DNA from: Sporocytophaga myxococcoides DSM 11118 | Lineage (GTDB): Bacteria; Bacteroidota; Bacteroidia; Cytophagales; Cytophagaceae | Assembly: GCF_000426725.1 (NCBI RefSeq) | Contig: NZ_AUFX01000005.1 | Location: 186,001 to 250,000 of the forward strand | Reading direction: 5' to 3' | Length of the DNA: 64,000 bases | Part shown: one piece after another, positions 6,947 to 16,175 of the stretch | Layout of the letters: each line of letters begins with the position of its first letter | Position numbering within the stretch: the stretch's first letter is position 1 | Translations under genes and position numbers: made by a program | Notes under the pieces: generated by a model | Database searches by the model: none | Told to the model about the DNA's origin: nothing | What the model saw: only the letters and a program-made list of their open reading frames with translations

Positions 6947-7242
6947 TTTTTGTAAAATATTGTTTGAAGATTGTTAAGGTAAAACAAGAGTTATTAAAAA
7001 TCAAATTTTTAAAATTAACGTCACAGATTATACCTTTTGCTTTGAATCCTTAAGTTGCTTTTAATAATTATTTCAATTTCTGAACCATCAACTTTTTCGT
7101 TTAATGTTAACTTTAAATTACCTACAAATGCACCTTTTGTTAGGAAACTGAAAGAAGTTTTTTGGGGATTATATAGATGTATAATATTTATGATGGGATA
7201 ATAAATTTGGTAAATTGTTAAATCTATAATAAGTATTCTAAT

Positions 7243-7310
7243 CTATATAATTCCTGAAGCCATGGCTTTCTTTAGCAGGTCACCAGATCTTTTACACTCA
7301 TCTTCCTTTT
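7243..7310 (-). pseudogene. C-terminal scrap of a third LuxR-type regulator
   Basis: Read on the minus strand, about 20 codons give KRSGDLLKKAMASGII followed by TAG (7243-7245). This matches the extreme C-terminus of the intact regulator at 7458-8261 (VKRSGDLMKAAIKAGLL) and of the broken copy at 8721 (VKRSGDLLKKALSAGIV). Upstream the frame quickly loses similarity, so only the tail of a former paralogue remains. The rest of the 6947-7457 gap shows nothing else recognisable. Confidence 0.7.
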
Positions 7311-7457: not shown

Positions 7458-8261
7458 TTATAATAATCCTGCTTTAATTGCTGCTTTCATCAAATCTCCG
7501 GATCTTTTTACATCCATTTTCTTTAACATATTTTTTCTGTGCTTATACACGGTATGCAGGCTGATGAAAAGAGCATCTGCAATTTCTCTGCTTGAAAACC
7601 CCTGACTCATGAGGTGTAAAATTTCAATTTCCCTTTCTGTCAAATTGGTTGATTCCTCATCACATAGGAAGGACTCTTTGTATATATTGTGATAAATGCC
7701 ATCTTGATTTTTTTGAGCAATCACAAAGGTGATAAAATTGTCATTTTTGAAATCATGAATGTCTGTCACCTGTTTTAGCAGCCAGTGTGGATTATTATCT
7801 TCATTTTGTCTCACAACAGTGATTTGATTCAGATACCACCTTTGAGAGCCATCTTTGTGGCTCATTAATGCAGAGAATGAGATTTTCAGATCCATTAGTG
7901 TTCCCGAATGTTTATGCTGGTTAAAAAACTTAAACATTGTAGGGAATATTTTATCCAGTATTATTTTAAGCTGATTGGGCGCAAATAAAGAGAAAGTTTT
8001 TCTGAAACCTTCTTTATATATATCAGATGGCTCATGGCCTAGAATAGCAAGGATATTGTCACTTACAAATAGATATTCCTGAGTTAAAATATCTATAACA
8101 CAAATTATGTTAGGGGAATGTTTCAGATGTGGATATATCTCCTGAAGCCTTTTTATTTTTTCAATATGATAATATATATCAGGCTCATTTGCCAAAGAAG
8201 CAATCTCGTCATTGATCACATTCAGTTCAGTATATCTTTTCTGCAAGTTTGTAACACCCAT
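7458..8261 (-). CDS. PAS-domain LuxR-type transcriptional regulator
   Basis: A 267-residue regulator. About 45-190 forms a PAS-like sensor region (SPNIICVIDILTQEYLFVS through WLLKQVTDIHDFKND). Residues 207-255 form a LuxR/FixJ-type helix-turn-helix (LTEREIEILHLMSQGFSSRE then HTVYKHRKNMLKKM). It lacks a receiver domain, so its signal is presumably a ligand or partner sensed by the PAS fold. It is the only intact member of a local family of three. A duplicated RNA-like module and a 20-bp palindrome lie 120-270 bases upstream, and related palindromes lie near 9.93 and 10.23 kb. LuxR-type regulators bind such palindromes, so this protein is the natural candidate to act on them (inference). Confidence 0.88.
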   Translation of the reverse strand: MGVTNLQKRYTELNVINDEIASLANEPDIYYHIEKIKRLQEIYPHLKHSPNIICVIDILTQEYLFVSDNILAILGHEPSDIYKEGFRKTFSLFAPNQLKIILDKIFPTMFKFFNQHKHSGTLMDLKISFSALMSHKDGSQRWYLNQITVVRQNEDNNPHWLLKQVTDIHDFKNDNFITFVIAQKNQDGIYHNIYKESFLCDEESTNLTEREIEILHLMSQGFSSREIADALFISLHTVYKHRKNMLKKMDVKRSGDLMKAAIKAGLL

Positions 8262-8377: not shown

Positions 8378-8479
8378 AAAAAAAAAACGGCAGATTCAAA
8401 TAAATGAATCTACCGTTTAGTTTAGTCGAGTTTAAAAAAATAGCTGATTGAACTTCCCAAGTATTACTTAATAATCACA
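8378..8479 (-). ncRNA. Putative small RNA, copy A
   Basis: A stretch of about 100 bases on the minus strand begins just after a -7-like element and ends in a 12-bp hairpin with one mismatch (8387-8416) followed by ten T residues. It is closely matched by copy B at 10096-10192. Shared blocks include (A/G)TGATTATTAAGTAA at the predicted 5' end and TTCAATCAGCTATTT in the middle. The terminator stems differ in sequence but stay paired, with one G-C to A-T covarying pair. No convincing ORF is present; a conserved four-codon frame followed by TAA begins at the 5' end. It could instead be an attenuator leader for the LuxR gene starting at 8261. Confidence 0.5.
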
Positions 8480-8482
8480 ATA

Positions 8483-8531
8483 CAAAAATTGTAAAATATT
8501 GATCTTAGGTCAATAACCATTAGTGGTTATT
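8483..8531 (-). promoter_or_regulatory. Palindromic operator with abutting promoter, site A
   Basis: The palindrome AATAACCA-N4-TGGTTATT occupies 8512-8531. On the minus strand its last two bases begin a TTG (8513-8511). Exactly 20 bases further is AATTTTTG (8490-8483), one mismatch from TAnnTTTG. The same geometry is seen at sites B and C. Confidence 0.6.
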
Positions 8532-8633
8532 TTTAATGATAGACTGAGCAATTCGAAAAGGATTTATTAAAAAACTTTTAAAGTAGGAGAACTCTGTTGA
8601 TTTTTAGAAGAAGGATAATAATTGAAAGTTTGA

Positions 8634-8677
8634 TTCACGAGTATTGATGAATCTTATCATTCATCAATACTCGTGAA
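8634..8677. repeat. Perfect 19-bp inverted repeat
   Basis: Two perfect 19-bp arms (8634-8652 and 8659-8677) flank a six-base loop, CTTATC. It lies 44 bases after the stop of the LuxR pseudogene. There is no T-tract on the minus strand, so it is not a standard terminator. It may be an RNA-stabilising hairpin or the remains of a mobile element end. Confidence 0.75.
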
Positions 8678-8720
8678 AGGAATATAAAAAAATGGTTTTA
8701 CAAAAGCGGAATTGTTGTTA

Positions 8721-9175
8721 TCAAACAATACCTGCACTTAAAGCTTTCTTTAATAGATCTCCTGATCTTTTAACATTCAATTTTTTTAACATATTTTTTC
8801 TATGTTTATAATAGTATGCTCGCTGACAAATAAGTAGCCTGCAATTTCTTTACTGGTGAGGCCTTGTCCCATAAGATTCAGTACTTCAACTTCTCTTTCA
8901 GAAAGAATATTTTTTTGATCTCCACATAAAAAGGTCCTCTTCATGATATTTATATAAACTCCCTTCTTATCTTTTTTGTGAACAGAAAAGGTGATATTTT
9001 CATCATTTTTGAATTGATGGATATCAGTCATTTGATTTATTAAAATGCGGGCATTGTTGTTCTAATCTCTTGATATAACCGTTACTTGATGATGGAACTA
9101 TCTTTGAGAGCCGTCTTTATGATTGAGTTTGATGCTGTATGTGGATTTTATATCTTCAATTTCGCTACCTCAGAC
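8721..9175 (-). pseudogene. Broken PAS-LuxR regulator paralogue
   Basis: The minus strand carries a degraded copy of the 7458-8261 gene. The C-terminal frame ends with KRSGDLLKKALSAGIV and TGA at 8721-8723. A one-base deletion near 8812 (within SEHTI/YKHRKNM) separates it from the upstream HTH frame (ILSEREVEVLNLMGQGLTSK). Further upstream are two in-frame stops: one replaces the Trp of GSQRWY, the other follows the VTVISRD segment. Similarity begins abruptly near 9175, so roughly the first 120 residues are absent. Several independent lesions mean this is a decayed gene and not a sequencing slip. Confidence 0.85.
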
Positions 9176-9182
9176 GTACCTG

Positions 9183-9861
9183 TCAAAAGTCATTGGCATC
9201 GTGGTAGGTAGATGGGGTTAAAGTGAATGGTCTAGGATTAACATTGACAATCGCATAATTTGATTTAGTTGTTCCACAAACATCAGTGGCTGTTACTGTG
9301 TATGATGTAGTATTTAAGAGCATTACTGTCATTGAGGAACCTGTGGAAGCGTTAGATTTCCATTTATATTTCAGGTCCAGGTTTGATGAAGCATTAAGTG
9401 TTGTTTTGGTGCCGCAGGTTAACGAGGTATTCCCAGAAATATTTATTGGCCAGTCATTAACCCGATAAACACCTTCTCCAGAATTCCCATGAAGGGTGCT
9501 TATATAGCTACATGCTTCATGACTGCCTTTAATTTTTTCAAATTTTGCTACAACCGCATATTGCAAAATATCTCTGTTATTGGGTATCGAGACAGTAAAT
9601 GTATTGTTCACGTTTTCACTTTTTACTATGGCTTTATTTATGTCATATTCCCCAGTCATAGATTCACAAAGATACCATTTCCAATAAGAGTTAACTCAGT
9701 CTGTAAATTCCGTGTCATATTAAAATCTGTAAAAGCGAGGGCTGTAAATGTTTGAGTTTTGCCTTTGCAAAGATTGGTCAGAGAGTTTTTTATTAAAACA
9801 TTTGCTTCGGATTTGAATGCAAATAATGCATGGAAAAAAATAGGGACATTAGCTTTTTCAT
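9183..9861 (-). pseudogene. Broken Ig/PKD-like surface protein
   Basis: Starting at the ATG at 9861, a signal peptide (MKKLMSLFF then, after a shift in a T-run near 9835, ALFAFKSEA) leads into SLTNLCKGKTQTFTALAF. A second shift near 9685 joins to SYWKWYLCESMTGEYD. The last frame contains a repeat-type segment, YKWKSNASTGSSMTV then TSYTVTATDVCGTTKSNYAI, typical of Ig/PKD-like modules in Bacteroidota surface proteins. It stops at 9183, directly against the LuxR pseudogene, and lacks any sorting domain. The gene is therefore frameshifted twice and truncated at its 3' end. Confidence 0.75.
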
Positions 9862-9897
9862 AAAGATTTTGTTTTTATAAGATGAAAAATTATAGTG

Positions 9898-9946
9898 CAA
9901 TTTTATGATCTAGAGTTACCTTACTCAATTACCAATATTGGTTATT
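9898..9946 (-). promoter_or_regulatory. Palindromic operator with abutting promoter, site C
   Basis: The palindrome is 9927-9946 (AATTACCA-ATAT-TGGTTATT on the plus strand). On the minus strand TTG (9928-9926) is followed after exactly 20 bases by TAAAATTG (9905-9898), one mismatch from TAnnTTTG. It lies about 37 bases before the start codon of the broken surface-protein gene and probably drove it. Confidence 0.6.
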
Positions 9947-10095
9947 TAATGATGAAAATGTTAGTATTCTCCAGAGCAGTTTGGGCAGATTATGAATCTC
10001 GAGAATTAATATTAGGTTGATTAATTCTTAGAACACATTTGTTGATGAAAATATTGAAGTTGAATAATGGTTAAAATATAATTTGAGCCTAGTTC

Positions 10096-10192
10096 AAAAA
10101 AAAACGACAACTTCAAAAATTGAAATTGCCGTTTTTAGTTTTAGAATAAATAGCTGATTGAATTACCCAAATATTGTTACTTAATAATCATG
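10096..10192 (-). ncRNA. Putative small RNA, copy B
   Basis: Homologue of copy A (8378-8479), with the same predicted 5' block ATGATTATTAAGTAA, the shared TTCAATCAGCTATTTA block and a terminal hairpin (10103-10133) followed by nine T residues on the minus strand. No intact gene follows within 230 bases. This makes an attenuator role less likely for this copy and favours a self-contained transcript. Similarity to copy A also extends upstream of the promoter, to about 10300. Confidence 0.5.
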
Positions 10193-10195
10193 TTG

Positions 10196-10244
10196 CAATT
10201 ATTGCCAAAAAATGAGTAGAGGTCAATAACCATAAATGGTTATT
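10196..10244 (-). promoter_or_regulatory. Palindromic operator with abutting promoter, site B
   Basis: The palindrome AATAACCA-TAAA-TGGTTATT lies at 10225-10244. On the minus strand the overlapping TTG (10226-10224) is followed after exactly 20 bases by AATAATTG (10203-10196), two mismatches from TAnnTTTG. The half-sites are identical to site A while the spacer differs. Confidence 0.6.
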
Positions 10245-10360: not shown

Positions 10361-11506
10361 TTATTTTTTAGGCACTAGCGTAAAATATCTAGCTCCACCA
10401 TCATCAACTGGCTTAGTATTAGTACTGTCAGAGTAGTGATGTCTGATAAATAGCGTATCTGCAGATATCTTCACTATCTCATGATTATATCTTCTATCAT
10501 AGTAGCCAAGGTAACTTCCGTTTGTGAAATCAAGAGTGTAACCAGTACCTGCTCCATTTGCCTTTCTAATTATGAATGGAGCTTGCTTGTGCTTAGGATC
10601 TGAATAGAAACCATCATCATATGTTCCTCTTTTAACTCCAGTAAGTTCTTTAGCGAAGTTCCAATGTACAGTTACGTTACCATTTTTAGGAATATATTGG
10701 TATTGACGAATATTGAATGTAAACTCGTTGGTTAGCATTCCTTTTTCCCATGCAGGACCTGTAAATCCATCAGGTTGATTCCACCAATCAGGAGTTAATG
10801 TTCCAAGTGGACCAACTCCACCACTTTTACCATTAGGTATCATTACCCAGGTCTTTCCATTTGCTGCAGCAAGTCCACCTGTCAAAGCCAATACTACAGG
10901 ATCATTAAGATCTGGGTTTGTAGGATCGTAATCTTCTGTAACTTCAACTGGTTTAGTAATAGAAGAAATACCTTTAACAGTTTTTACTTTTAAAGTAATG
11001 TTGTAATTCCCTTTAAAAGGAAAATATACTTCAGAAACTTGAGCCTTTGAACTATCACCATTTGCATAGGTGAATGTCATATCTATTGGATCTGGTACAG
11101 TTGAAGTAACTTTAAACTTGAAATCTCCAACTTTTTCAATTTCAAAATCTGCGGCATATGGACTGTTCTCCGGAATGACAAGATCTTTAGTAATTGTAGT
11201 TGTACCACCTTTAGATGTCGCAAGTAACTTTATTTTATAGGTCCCTTTATATCCAAAGAATACAGTTTCATTTGATGCAGAAGATTTAGCAATACCTCCA
11301 AAATCCCATGAAGTTATAAATGCCCCTGGGGTAGTGTTCTTAAATGTGAATGTATTTTTATCACTTGGATCATTCGTGTTTTGAACTATTTCAAAATCAG
11401 CTACAGAAGGAGCAGGGAGTTCTTCATCCTTTCCTTTCTTAGGTTGGCAACTTACAACTATAAGAGCTGTAAGTACCATATTTATAAGAATATTAAATCG
11501 TTTCAT
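10361..11506 (-). CDS. PKD-domain surface lipoprotein of a SusCD locus
   Basis: A 381-residue lipoprotein with a signal peptide and lipobox ending at Cys20 (LIVVSC). Two PKD/Ig-like domains are visible at about 35-110 (TFTFKNTTPGAFITSWDFG) and 115-190. The C-terminal half (about 205-381) is rich in Trp and Gly (WWNQPDGFTGPAWEKGM, GYYDRRYNHEIV) and may bind glycan. Its position after SusC and SusD is that of SusE/SusF-like surface glycan-binding proteins, which present oligosaccharide to the SusCD transporter. Only 19 bases separate it from susD. It is not clearly homologous to SusE itself, so the role is inferred from context. Confidence 0.8.
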   Translation of the reverse strand: MKRFNILINMVLTALIVVSCQPKKGKDEELPAPSVADFEIVQNTNDPSDKNTFTFKNTTPGAFITSWDFGGIAKSSASNETVFFGYKGTYKIKLLATSKGGTTTITKDLVIPENSPYAADFEIEKVGDFKFKVTSTVPDPIDMTFTYANGDSSKAQVSEVYFPFKGNYNITLKVKTVKGISSITKPVEVTEDYDPTNPDLNDPVVLALTGGLAAANGKTWVMIPNGKSGGVGPLGTLTPDWWNQPDGFTGPAWEKGMLTNEFTFNIRQYQYIPKNGNVTVHWNFAKELTGVKRGTYDDGFYSDPKHKQAPFIIRKANGAGTGYTLDFTNGSYLGYYDRRYNHEIVKISADTLFIRHHYSDSTNTKPVDDGGARYFTLVPKK

Positions 11507-11525
11507 GTTCGATAAATTTTTACTA

Positions 11526-13061
11526 TTAAAAATAACCCTTGTTTTGAGAGATTTTACCTTTAGATAATTGAACTTCTTGTAAAGGAATAGGGAAAATTTC
11601 GTGAATTCCTTCTTTAAATTTCCCTCCTTCAGGTGTAGCCTTCATCACTGAAGCAGCTCTTCCTTGTCTAACCAGATCAAAGAATCTATGTCCTTCTAAA
11701 GCTAGCTCTACTCTTCTTTCTCTCCATATTATATCTCTAAGTAATTCCTTATTGGTTTCGGTTTTATCCGCCATGTTTACTCTTGATCTTACTCTATTAA
11801 GATATTTTAGAGCATTTTCCGTTTGTCCAAGTTCATTGGCAGCTTCAGCAGCCATTAAAAGGACATCTGCAAATCTTATGATACGGTAGTTAGACGGACC
11901 ATCACTAGGATTAAGAAGAGAAAGTTTATCAGATTCTACATATTTTCTGCAATATGTTCCTGTGAAAGGATAATTGGCAGCACTAGCTTTATATACTTCT
12001 GTGCCAACTAAGTCACCATCCTGGATTATCGTAGCTTTCAAGCGAGGATCTTCCTTATCATCCTTAGTTTTCTCTTTCTTGAATTCGTCTAGAAGGCTTT
12101 TGGTTGGGCAGTTAAATCCCCATCCACCATTATCTCTTCCTCTTGTCATTACGTTAAAGAAAGTTCCTTCATTACCGCTTCCCCAGTTAGAGTTATTGTC
12201 ACCACCTCTTCCTGCAACTCCTGCTGTAAACTGAATCTCAAATACTGATTCAATTCCATTTTCTTTAGCCAAAGAATGTATTGTAGAGTAATCTGACTCT
12301 AAGTCATAAATGCCAGAGTTAATAACAGATTCAGCATTTTTTAATACTTCACTCCATTTTGCAGCATTGTCACGGGTCTGATACAATTGAACTCTAGCAA
12401 GAAGAGCTAATGCAGCACCTTTGGTAGCTCTTCCAAGTTCAATTTGTCCTTTATTAGGTAATACTAATGCTTCAGTAAGGTCAGCTTCTATTTGTTTGTA
12501 AACATCAGCTTTAGGACTTTTTTCAAGCGTATATTCATCCGGGTTTAAGACTTTGGTTACAACAGGTACATCACCAAACATTTTTACAAGTTCAAAATGA
12601 TAGTACGCTCTTAGGAACTTAGCCTCTGCCATAACACGATTCTTAATTGTTTCGCTGGCATTTGATTTTGGGGCGAATTGCAATACAAGGTTTGATCTGT
12701 AGATTCCGGTATAGTTTTTCTGCCATACTAGGAGTACTTCCGGGAAGCTAGATTTCGCATCAAATTTTTCAAAGTAATCGAAATTTACCTGATCCGGATC
12801 TCCACTACCTCCTTTTAATGCATCATCAGAAACGACATCTCCAAATAGAAAAGGTAGACAGAACTGTTGCCCCAATCTGTCAGATTCCATAGTCAATGGA
12901 TCATATGCTGCATTGATAGCCGCAATCATATCCTGATCAGTTTTGTAAAAGTTTTCGTCAACTACTGATACCTGAGGCTTTTTATCAAGGAATTCTTTTT
13001 TGCAGCTACTAAATAAAGAAGCAGCAAAAATTAAATATATAAGATTAGCTTTTTTTAGCAT
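11526..13061 (-). CDS. SusD/RagB-family nutrient-binding lipoprotein
   Basis: A 511-residue surface lipoprotein with a lipobox at Cys20 (SLFSSC), followed by LDKKPQVSV, the usual SusD N-terminus. The TPR-like helical scaffold is visible in the N-terminal half (AKFLRAYYHFELVKMFGDVP). The conserved C-terminal part contains YRIIRFADVLLMAAEAANE and WRERRVELALEGHRFFDLVR. SusD proteins form the lid over the SusC channel and bind the incoming oligosaccharide. It is 21 bases downstream of susC in the same operon. The substrate cannot be read from sequence. Confidence 0.95.
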   Translation of the reverse strand: MLKKANLIYLIFAASLFSSCKKEFLDKKPQVSVVDENFYKTDQDMIAAINAAYDPLTMESDRLGQQFCLPFLFGDVVSDDALKGGSGDPDQVNFDYFEKFDAKSSFPEVLLVWQKNYTGIYRSNLVLQFAPKSNASETIKNRVMAEAKFLRAYYHFELVKMFGDVPVVTKVLNPDEYTLEKSPKADVYKQIEADLTEALVLPNKGQIELGRATKGAALALLARVQLYQTRDNAAKWSEVLKNAESVINSGIYDLESDYSTIHSLAKENGIESVFEIQFTAGVAGRGGDNNSNWGSGNEGTFFNVMTRGRDNGGWGFNCPTKSLLDEFKKEKTKDDKEDPRLKATIIQDGDLVGTEVYKASAANYPFTGTYCRKYVESDKLSLLNPSDGPSNYRIIRFADVLLMAAEAANELGQTENALKYLNRVRSRVNMADKTETNKELLRDIIWRERRVELALEGHRFFDLVRQGRAASVMKATPEGGKFKEGIHEIFPIPLQEVQLSKGKISQNKGYF

Positions 13062-13082
13062 TTTTTTAGCAGTTTAATTTGA

Positions 13083-16000
13083 TTAAAATGTAGCGCTTAC
13101 ACCAACCATCCATGTTCTCGCTTGAGGATAAGTACCTCCTTTGTCAACTCCTACATCCAGGAAGGATCTTGTACGGGCGAAATCAGGAGTATATGTTCCG
13201 ATTTCCGGATCAAGGCCAGTATATTTTGTAAACGTATACAGATTTTGAGCCATGATATAAACTCTTAACTTTTCAAGTTTTACCAGTTTTGAATATGTTG
13301 CTGGTAGAGTATAGCCAAGCTGAGCAGATCTGATTCTCAGGAAAGATCCATTTTCAATGTAGTAATTAGAGATTTTTCTGTTGTCATTTGGGTCTGCGAA
13401 TGTTACTCTTGGTACATCATTTGATGTTCCCGGACCAGTCCATCTGTTAAGCATTTCTTCTGAGAAATTTGAGTAAGGAACTCCACCTTCAAGCGTATAC
13501 TTGTTACCATTAAAGATTTTGTTTCCATAAGATCCCTGGAAGAATATAGAAAGATCAAATCCTTTATATTCTACATCACCGTTGAAACCATAAATGAATT
13601 TAGGAAGTGGGCTTCCAAGTGTTGTTCTGTCGTTAGGAGTAATCTTTCCATCTCCATCGCGATCTTTAAATTTGAAGTCTCCAGGACGAACACCTTCTTG
13701 CACAGTTTGAAGGGCTGCTGCTTCCTCTGCTGTCTGAACAATTCCATCAGTTTCCAATCCGTAAAACTGAGCCATTGAAGCTCCCTGCTGAGTGATGTTT
13801 GTAAAGAAAGTTCTGAATTGACCATCGTAAATTGGATCGTCAAGTTTGGTTATTTTGTTCTTGATAGCAGTAAAGTTTCCACCAACTCTATAGTTTACTT
13901 TTCCTATGTTATTTTTGTATTCTGCAGATAATTCAACCCCTTTATTAGTCATTGCTCCAGCATTTACAAACGGAGGCTCTTCAACTCCTGAATATCCGGG
14001 AATTCTTCTTTTGTAAATCATGTCTGATGTATTCTTGATGAAATAATCAGCAGAGAAAGTAATTCTGTTGTTTAAGAAACCAAATTCAGCTCCAAAGTTA
14101 GACGTTGTTACAGTTTCCCATTTGATGTTTTTGTTACCTGCCCCAAGTGGTGTGCTACCAAATGCAGATGAATTATTAAATGAGTAGTTATATCCTTGGT
14201 TGATATTGGTAGTATAAGGATAGTCATTACCTGGGATATTCTGGTTACCTAATTTACCCCAGCTCGCTCTTAATTTTAAGAAATTTACAATGCTTCTGAT
14301 TGGTTGCATGAAGCTTTCTTCTGAAACAGTCCATCCTGCAGCAAAAGATGGAAAAATACCCCATCTGTTTTCTTTGGTGAATCTTGAAGATCCATCAAGC
14401 CTGGTATTTGCTTGTAACTGGTATTTTTCCTTATAAGAATAGTTGATTCTGCCTACATAAGAGAATAAGGCTGATTCCGTACCTTCGCCTTGAGCATTAG
14501 CGTTAACTGATGCAGAAGTAAGATATTGCTGACTTGGGTCATTGCTGAAGGTTCCGTCTTTAGATGCTCTGTAGTAATCGAATCTGGTGTTTTGCATTCC
14601 TACGAGGAACAATCCTTCAATTTTATGATTTTCAGCAAGTGTTTTTGTGTAATTTAATGAGTTTTCCCAAACATAGGTTCTTGTTTGATTTTGCTGAAAA
14701 ACAACCTGAGCATTATCTAGCTTTTCGCTATTAGATACATAGTACTTTCCATTAAATTGGTTTTGTGTAAAGCGGTTTGAAGTATAGCCAAGGTTTGATT
14801 TAACTTTCAACCCTTTTATGATTTGATATTCGGCAAACCAGCTTCCTATGAAGTTCATCCCTTTATACTTATTGTGGTTGTAAGTTAGACGAGCCAATGG
14901 ATTTGGAATATCAGTTCTAGGAATACCTGATGCATATAGAGAATCTCCTCCACGGCCTGAATATATGTTTGTAACAGGATCCATGTTAAGAGCTCCTGAA
15001 ATAACAGAGTTAAAAGGATCTGAATCGTATAACTGAGATCTGTTAAAAGAGGATACGTTCATAAAAGTACCCACTTTTAAGTTATTAAGCAGCTGATAAT
15101 CGATCTTAGTGTTAAAGTTTAATCTGTTATAATCAGAATTTTTCATAATACCTTCCTGTTGAAGATAGCTTCCAGAAAGATAGTAATTGAGTTTTTCAGT
15201 TCCGCCAGAAGCACTAAGTGAGTAGTTTTGCATGATGGCTTTTCTGAAAATTTGATCTTGCCAATCAGTTCCACCTCCGATAGTATCTGTATTGTATTTG
15301 ATTGTTCCGTTGTCAGCCATTGAAGCTTCATTGGCTAATGTGGCCCACTCTTTTGCATCTAATAAATTATATCTTTTCCATTCACTTGATACACCAGTAA
15401 GAGCATTGAATTCATAAGAAGTTTTTCTGTTTGCTCCTGTTTTGGTTGTAACCAGCACAACTCCGTTTGCAGCACGAGCTCCATAAACAGCAGCCGCAGA
15501 CGCATCTTTAAGAATGTTGACTGATTCTATATCACTTGAATTGATAAAACTTAAATCAGGAACTGGAACACCGTTTACCAGATATAGAGGGTCACTGTTG
15601 TTGATCGTACCGACACCCCTTATACGCACGGATAGTGGCGCTCCCGGAGCTCCTGTGTTTTGTGTTACGCTAACACCGGTAACTCTACCTTGTATCGATT
15701 GTACAGGATCTACAGATACCACTTTAGTAACATCAGAACCTTTTACTGAGGAGATTGAACCTGTTACATCAGTCTTTTTCTGTGTTCCATAACCAACGAC
15801 AACAACTTCGTCAAGTTTGTTATCTGCTGGCAGTTTCACATTTACAACTGTCTGACTTCCTACTTTTACTTCTTGTGTTACAAAGCCAATGTAGCTTACA
15901 ACAAGCACTGCATTACTATCCGGCACCGAAATAGAGAAATCTCCGTTCTCGTCGGTGATTGTTCCTGCTGAAGTTCCTTTGATGGCAATTGTAACTCCAG

Positions 16001-16175
16001 GTATACTTTCCCCATCATCAGATACTATTCGTCCTGTGATAGGAATTGCATTTTGTGCCATTGCCTGCATGAAGCCGACTAAAATGACAGCGAGTGTTAA
16101 CGCAATCTTAAAAATTCTCGGAGATGTAATAAAATTACTTCCCCGAGAGATTTTCGGTGGTAGCTTTTTTCTCAT
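13083..16175 (-). CDS. SusC/RagA-family TonB-dependent outer-membrane transporter
   Basis: A 1030-residue outer-membrane receptor that imports large glycans or peptides using TonB energy. The signal peptide ends near residue 40 (MQAMA). A carboxypeptidase-regulatory-like domain (about 45-115, ITGRIVSDDGESIPGVTIAI) is followed by the TonB-box region DEVVVVGYG at 122-130. A plug domain (about 135-250, with the SusC-type signature GVGTINNSDPLYLVNGVPV) and a C-terminal beta-barrel complete it. It is the first gene of a three-gene operon with SusD and a PKD lipoprotein. No ECF sigma/anti-sigma pair or hybrid regulator lies beside it, so its control is not apparent locally. Confidence 0.96.
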   Translation of the reverse strand: MRKKLPPKISRGSNFITSPRIFKIALTLAVILVGFMQAMAQNAIPITGRIVSDDGESIPGVTIAIKGTSAGTITDENGDFSISVPDSNAVLVVSYIGFVTQEVKVGSQTVVNVKLPADNKLDEVVVVGYGTQKKTDVTGSISSVKGSDVTKVVSVDPVQSIQGRVTGVSVTQNTGAPGAPLSVRIRGVGTINNSDPLYLVNGVPVPDLSFINSSDIESVNILKDASAAAVYGARAANGVVLVTTKTGANRKTSYEFNALTGVSSEWKRYNLLDAKEWATLANEASMADNGTIKYNTDTIGGGTDWQDQIFRKAIMQNYSLSASGGTEKLNYYLSGSYLQQEGIMKNSDYNRLNFNTKIDYQLLNNLKVGTFMNVSSFNRSQLYDSDPFNSVISGALNMDPVTNIYSGRGGDSLYASGIPRTDIPNPLARLTYNHNKYKGMNFIGSWFAEYQIIKGLKVKSNLGYTSNRFTQNQFNGKYYVSNSEKLDNAQVVFQQNQTRTYVWENSLNYTKTLAENHKIEGLFLVGMQNTRFDYYRASKDGTFSNDPSQQYLTSASVNANAQGEGTESALFSYVGRINYSYKEKYQLQANTRLDGSSRFTKENRWGIFPSFAAGWTVSEESFMQPIRSIVNFLKLRASWGKLGNQNIPGNDYPYTTNINQGYNYSFNNSSAFGSTPLGAGNKNIKWETVTTSNFGAEFGFLNNRITFSADYFIKNTSDMIYKRRIPGYSGVEEPPFVNAGAMTNKGVELSAEYKNNIGKVNYRVGGNFTAIKNKITKLDDPIYDGQFRTFFTNITQQGASMAQFYGLETDGIVQTAEEAAALQTVQEGVRPGDFKFKDRDGDGKITPNDRTTLGSPLPKFIYGFNGDVEYKGFDLSIFFQGSYGNKIFNGNKYTLEGGVPYSNFSEEMLNRWTGPGTSNDVPRVTFADPNDNRKISNYYIENGSFLRIRSAQLGYTLPATYSKLVKLEKLRVYIMAQNLYTFTKYTGLDPEIGTYTPDFARTRSFLDVGVDKGGTYPQARTWMVGVSATF

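Follow-up and report, generated by a model that had tools for sequence, protein, structure and literature searches.

Twin small-RNA-like genes beside a LuxR-type regulator in Sporocytophaga as candidate sponges of a multi-copy RNA family

Two short intergenic genes of Sporocytophaga myxococcoides DSM 11118, called here copy A and copy B, carry a conserved core whose sequence is the antisense of CAUAGCUGGUUGAA, found at the 5' end of the members of T, a multi-copy small-RNA-like family. They lie in a window of 64,000 nucleotides (the whole stretch of DNA that was analysed, taken from contig NZ_AUFX01000005.1). We propose that A and B are stand-alone sibling small RNAs controlled by a LuxR-type regulator and acting as sponges (anti-sRNAs) of the T family, and we put the probability of this reading at roughly 0.55. 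Each of them would start at its own promoter and end at an intrinsic terminator. A palindrome centred at -42.5 would be bound by a dimer of a LuxR-type regulator, for which the neighbouring LuxR1, or paralogues of it that were lost or have decayed, are the likeliest candidates. The functional part would be a mostly unpaired core of 12-15 nt, (G)UUCAAYCAGCUA(UG), pairing with the invariant CAUAGCUGGUUGAA of T1 to T5; with the regulator active, A and B would occupy the T seeds and thereby relieve whatever T controls. The copies and their conservation, the promoter and palindrome geometry, the covariation of the terminators, the complementarity in the four genus genomes and the order-wide, multi-copy T motif were all computed; we infer transcription of A, B and T, binding of LuxR1, formation of the duplex in cells and an effect directed from A/B onto T. 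The antisense relation between the internal block of A/B and an order-wide family is new; an earlier sequence-only reading of this DNA gave the two copies no function.

Structure and conservation of copies A and B

Both copies are encoded on the minus strand, A at 8378-8479 (about 100 nt, from the predicted start at 8479 to the end of the T-tract) and B at 10096-10192 (about 97 nt). They were found where the sequence-only reading had placed them, with the 5' block, the internal block and the T-tracts in common (10 T residues in A, 9 in B). The predicted start also falls on the first conserved block as claimed: with +1 at 8479 and 10192, TTTG in A and ATTG in B occupy positions -7 to -4. The conserved parts are the palindrome with TTGAC, a -7-like box, the 5' block, TTGG..AGTTCAAYCAGCTA and the terminator, so that each copy has Bacteroidota-type promoter-like boxes and an intrinsic terminator, without a conserved ORF. 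The core, UUCAAYCAGCUA in the alignment, is located in the mostly unpaired part of the RNA (TTCAATCAGCTA at 8441-8452 in A and at 10151-10162 in B, minus strand) and is complementary to the 5' ends of the T family. Similarity had been said to continue upstream to about 8620 and 10300; by blastn it stops at about 8532 and 10245, just beyond the palindrome. A long perfect inverted repeat with 17-bp arms and a 10-nt loop was seen upstream of copy A (8634-8677), and its arm sequence is absent from loci L015, L016 and L017.

The terminator hairpins, at 8385-8418 in A (T-tract running to 8378) and 10102-10134 in B (T-tract running to 10096), both on the minus strand, have diverged and remain paired, and the G-C to A-T change reported earlier was seen again. 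Across the eight copies of four genomes, a two-sided change was present in 5 of the 14 pairs and 97.3% of the cells could pair, compared with at most 58% in slid alignments used as a control. The hairpin was present in the lowest-energy and centroid folds of all eight copies. A protein-coding reading of A and B was rejected, as the longest frames are not conserved and a 4-codon GTG/ATG frame is lost in copy B of both G001 and G003.

In the 6.34-Mb genome of DSM 11118 (G000), A matched only itself and B (E = 1.8e-13, 78% identity). When 59 genomes were searched at the DNA level, both copies were present in all four Sporocytophaga genomes, one pair per genome, with B of G003 partly decayed in its 5' block and T-tract and intact in its core. 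The other matches were four segments of 29-46 bp in members of the order (E from 2e-6 to 1e-3). A covariance-model search, also suggested by the sequence-only reading, was run on 19 genomes of the family and 390 of the order. It gave eight matches of at least 88 bits, all of them the known copies in the four genus genomes, with no conserved ORF. Nothing comparable was found outside the genus in these genomes, the next score being 46.3 bits, and the matches at or below that score include antisense ones on palindromic terminators. Neither A/B nor the window as a whole gave an Rfam match at the gathering score. Pairwise identities, calculated without a tree, were 87-95% between A copies, 77-86% between B copies and 70-76% between A and B. 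Copies of one type are thus closer to each other than A is to B, which suggests that the duplication is older than the split of these species. Two paralogues per genome have been kept across species in all four genomes, the pattern looked for in sibling small RNAs.

A family of elements complementary to the core

The T family was found by searching the complement of the core, TAGCTGRTTGAAC (a 13-mer), in the four genomes. Apart from A and B, five exact matches were obtained, T1 in each of the four genomes and T2 in G002; the other sites had one mismatch. T1 is an intergenic element of about 75 nt with -33 and -7 boxes and a terminator, and about 140 bp around it are 93-96% identical in the four genomes, while an alignment of the sequence directly beside this stretch fails between the two genome pairs. 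Its layout is a -33 TTG, 19 bp, TAACTTTG, (U)UCACCAUAGCUGGUUGAAC..., a C-rich loop and the terminator. Collecting the TAGCTGRTTGAAN sites gave a family composed of T1 (four genomes), T4 (four), T3 (three), T2 (two) and T5 (three copies in G003), all members having CCATAGCTGGTTGAA at or near the predicted 5' end. The exact 14-mer CATAGCTGGTTGAA occurs 16 times in the four genus genomes (3+4+4+5), every time in a T-type element, where base composition predicts 0.05 per genome. Bacteroidota-type -7 boxes are located just upstream of the motif in T1, T2, T3 and T5, and the neighbourhood of T1 and T4 is unchanged across the four genomes. Some members are less tidy: no clear -7 box is seen in T4, which also runs into the end of an opposite ORF, and a clean terminator is missing from T5a. 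Rfam gave no match for 11 T loci (none at all for seven T loci, and nothing at the gathering score for the four T1 loci and part of L142), the sub-threshold matches falling outside T. The T elements are predicted to be small RNAs.

Predicted pairing between A/B and T

Each of the 12 core positions is able to pair with its counterpart in the T seed in all eight A/B copies (96/96 cells, in cores located by a pattern that permits only pairing letters). The two variable columns of the core keep the pairing by means of G-U, C/U facing G and A/G facing U, and the continuous pairing extends over 12-15 bp. Cofolding of A or B with T gave a gain of -12.1 to -22.9 kcal/mol in all 30 same-genome pairs, which included 15 of the 16 T elements (T5a was left out), and in each pair none of 60 shuffles reached it. 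Because T was found via complementarity, the shuffle test is a gauge of pairing strength and not of the odds of discovery, and one exact 13-mer match per genome is not rare by chance. More independent support comes from the presence of T in genera without A/B, from the position of the motif at the 5' end and from the pairing that is kept despite substitutions. In all four genus genomes, the conserved region of A/B is antisense to the seed of T, itself a putative small RNA. Tandem pairs of ATTCAAYCAGCTAACCTTTA were also observed outside long ORFs in G002 (L132, 1501 and 1557) and G001 (L138, 1501 and 1664), possibly in another RNA, one with two T-binding sites.

Possible targets of T and of A/B

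T seed matches were not commoner at gene starts than inside genes in a 0.8-Mb sample of 557 genes: the lowest threshold gave 19 in start regions and 22 in the coding control, the next one 6 and 12, and 12 shuffled seeds gave a mean of 11.7 and a maximum of 22. General start-site targeting by T, first suggested by sites before the L093, L134 and recQ-like genes, was not supported by this comparison. The recQ-like mRNA (L100, L130 and L095, about 1501-1520, in G000, G002 and G003) carries UUCAACCAGCUA, the complement of the T seed, which begins about 20 nt upstream of the start codon, and is a candidate target of T. For SusC targeting of the kind known for FopS, four SusC start regions were compared with T1, which showed no gain over shuffles in three and a weak one in L170 (-10.3 kcal/mol, with 3 of 100 shuffles as good).

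The complementarity could be explained differently, if A and B were trans-acting small RNAs aimed at mRNAs, or if T repressed A/B, the match to T reflecting a shared target logic with no sponging. Sites other than T do exist, for example the one 20 nt before the recQ-like ATG in three genomes, and the sponge direction is itself a proposal. Against this, 5/5 exact core-complement matches besides A/B are T elements (T1 in four genomes and T2 in G002), and among the one-mismatch sites, viewed at 21 loci, no mRNA match kept in all four genomes was noticed. We consider this reading unlikely.

A link of A/B and T to glycan uptake is circumstantial: of only four SusC genes above the cut-off, one is next to A/B and another is about 0.6 kb from T1, in divergent orientation. 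The cellulose-uptake cluster chu_1276-1280 of Cytophaga (PMC12016534) was considered as context. Hfq was found in none of the four genus genomes and in 5 of 14 controls, which raises the question of what mediates pairing between A/B and T.

The locus, its palindromes and probable LuxR-type control

The order on the minus strand is SusC (13083-16175), a SusD-like protein (11526-13061), a lipoprotein-like protein with a PKD domain (10361-11506), copy B, broken remnants of a secreted-protein gene and of luxR, copy A, LuxR1 and a remnant of LuxR2. The first three form a glycan-uptake group (10361-16175) located just upstream of copy B; SusD and lipoprotein are putative labels given from the protein sequences. 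LuxR1 (7458-8261, 267 aa) has a GerE HTH domain and a sub-threshold PAS match and is the probable regulator acting at the palindromes. Between B and A there is a remnant of a second LuxR-type gene with internal stops (8742-9205, bounds approximate), and a 3'-end remnant of LuxR2 is present at 7231-7305 (86-88% identity), LuxR2 being intact in G001 and G003. All of these are on the minus strand.

Copy A terminates 116 nt ahead of luxR1 on the same strand, and a broken luxR separates B from A in G000 and G002. A, and formerly B, could then be the 5' leader or attenuator of a downstream luxR, with the hairpin controlling read-through. In G001 and G003, however, B precedes A with no luxR, nor any ORF of at least 60 aa, between them, and the conserved TATCG[TA]ACCTTTT between the terminator and luxR1 could be the promoter of luxR1 itself. 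The terminator is formed in every copy by both folding measures, and the core matches a trans RNA-like family, both of which also speak against attenuation, so that we regard a leader function as improbable. The sequence-only reading had argued for an independent transcript from the lack of an intact gene after copy B. No intact gene is indeed found there, and this by itself is no evidence for such a transcript because luxR-type remnants (about 8742-9205) lie downstream of B; the arrangement in G001 and G003 is the better argument that the genes may stand alone.

A 20-bp palindrome, AATAACCA-N4-TGGTTATT, abuts the -33 element of A (8512-8531) and of B (10225-10244), with its centre at -42.5 from the predicted start. 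A third perfect palindrome (9927-9946) has the same 21-bp spacing to a TAAAATTG box and is located before the broken secreted-protein and luxR remnants. These three are the only perfect AATWACCA-N4-TGGTWATT sites in the DSM 11118 genome, all inside a 1.75-kb stretch of this locus. In the four genomes together there are 13 perfect sites, 11 of them at the A/B locus, and a reversed palindrome gave 0-1 matches per genome with up to one mismatch allowed. From palindrome to -7-like box the distance is 21 bp in A and B, at the third site and also in the two LuxR2 promoters (G001 and G003). The near-restriction of perfect palindromes to this locus suggests control by a LuxR-type regulator. A position of -42.5 is that of the lux box of a class II activator, and a 20-bp dyad is found there in both the A and B promoters relative to a start that is predicted, not mapped. 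This geometry is compatible with an activating dimer of a GerE-domain protein; LuxR1 would be the simplest candidate, its binding being proposed from adjacency and geometry. In known LuxR-type class II operators, a 20-bp palindrome at -42.5 likewise overlaps the -33/-35 element; here, by contrast, the protein has a GerE domain with a weak PAS match and belongs to the Bacteroidota, and binding by LuxR1 is a prediction. Comparison thus bears out the earlier suggestion, an undescribed pair of small regulatory RNAs next to a LuxR regulator, as far as promoter, operator-like palindrome, core and terminator are kept in the four genus genomes; transcription and LuxR control would be its inferred part, and the copy B argument its weak one.

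Several further features were observed around these palindromes. A secreted-looking protein and then a luxR gene follow the third site of the window as remnants (9183-9893). In G001 and G003 what follows the third-site palindrome and promoter is LuxR2 and another stretch, closed by a terminator-like hairpin. One further palindrome lies elsewhere in each of G001 (L064 1501-1520, C3:242909) and G003 (L066 1501-1520, C2:746395), with similar downstream sequence and a different next gene (transposase-like in G003).

The T motif in the order and the phylum

The exact 14-mer T motif was found in 106 of 390 genomes of the order, compared with 11 of 390 for the reversed control, and reached up to 19 exact copies in one genome. 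Over a phylum-wide sample it was at background (10/395, the DSM 11118 genome included, vs 9/395 for the control). The motif extends to genera in which no A/B were detected, and T is therefore probably the older of the two. Five genomes of one family (G063, G114, G150, G168 and G048, family f15) contain 6 to 19 exact motifs, vs 3 to 5 in Sporocytophaga. Thirty T-motif loci from the order, many of them from close relatives, were folded. A fold of -16 kcal/mol or lower was present within 55 nt 3' of the motif in 27 of the 30 and absent in three. A z below -3 was obtained downstream of the motif at 17/30 loci and upstream at 10/30, so that structure upstream of the motif is also common outside the genus.

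The T elements are located after DEAD-box-helicase-like genes, between NifU-like and UbiA-like genes (names given from the sequences) and across the 3' ends of ORFs that converge. In order relatives (L139-L143) T was seen to overlap the 3' end of convergent ORFs and to code for FNQLWK or QPAMER according to frame. Because the overlapped ORFs read the motif in different frames, the constraint on T looks to act on DNA or RNA and not on protein. Carriage by phages was set aside, as 35 exact 15-mers in viral contigs are at the chance level by a rough estimate. That the complementarity is a coincidence and T a set of REP-like or other hairpin-bearing intergenic repeats, as its copy number (up to 19 exact motifs per genome), associated hairpins and position over convergent ORF ends in some genomes might suggest, is very improbable in view of the -7 boxes just upstream of the motif in T1, T2, T3 and T5, the constant neighbourhood of T1 and T4 in four genomes and a core in which every position is still pairable despite substitutions.

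Significance and comparison with known systems

Sequence alone leads to the prediction of one more multi-copy RNA family, spread across an order of Bacteroidota, a phylum whose small RNAs are known, in the literature examined, mainly from gut Bacteroides. In one cellulose-digesting genus it also predicts two antisense RNAs against the shared seed of that family, with a probable regulator alongside, and the prediction is precise to the base pair. The sponge reading of A and B can be extended to a bolder scheme, which we offer as a tentative possibility and consider somewhat more doubtful than not: T would be a core multi-copy regulon in much of the order, with one invariant 14-nt seed, and in Sporocytophaga the twin LuxR-inducible sponge by the glycan-uptake operon would silence the whole T family, as an Hfq-independent RNA-on-RNA master switch.

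No open-literature title describing A/B or T was found among the top-ranked titles, and the motif string matched no paper there. A transcriptome paper on Sporocytophaga CX11 (PMC10992098) mentions neither LuxR nor small RNA.

The systems most like T are FopS and GibS of Bacteroides thetaiotaomicron (PMC11697453, PMC7366714). Like FopS, T is multi-copy, about 60-80 nt long, has a shared 5' seed, includes intergenic and 3'-UTR-like members and has Bacteroidota promoters. The word 'sponge' is absent from PMC11697453, and in PMC7366714 sRNA sponges come up a single time, as a class in general. T appears to differ from FopS in that its exact motif is at background in the phylum-wide sample (10/395 vs 9/395) and in that pairing with SusC starts finds no support in three of the four genes and weak support in the other.

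Small-RNA sponges are known from Proteobacteria, e.g. SroC and RbsZ. As in these, a conserved part of a non-coding RNA is antisense to the seed of another small RNA; unlike them, A and B are intergenic twins carrying an operator of the LuxR type, the four genus genomes gave no Hfq match, and the seed of a whole family appears to be targeted. With the sibling small RNAs Qrr and OmrA/B they have in common two close paralogues at one locus, with a common core and promoter logic. They differ from these siblings in that their target appears to be other small RNAs and in that the regulator gene adjoins them.
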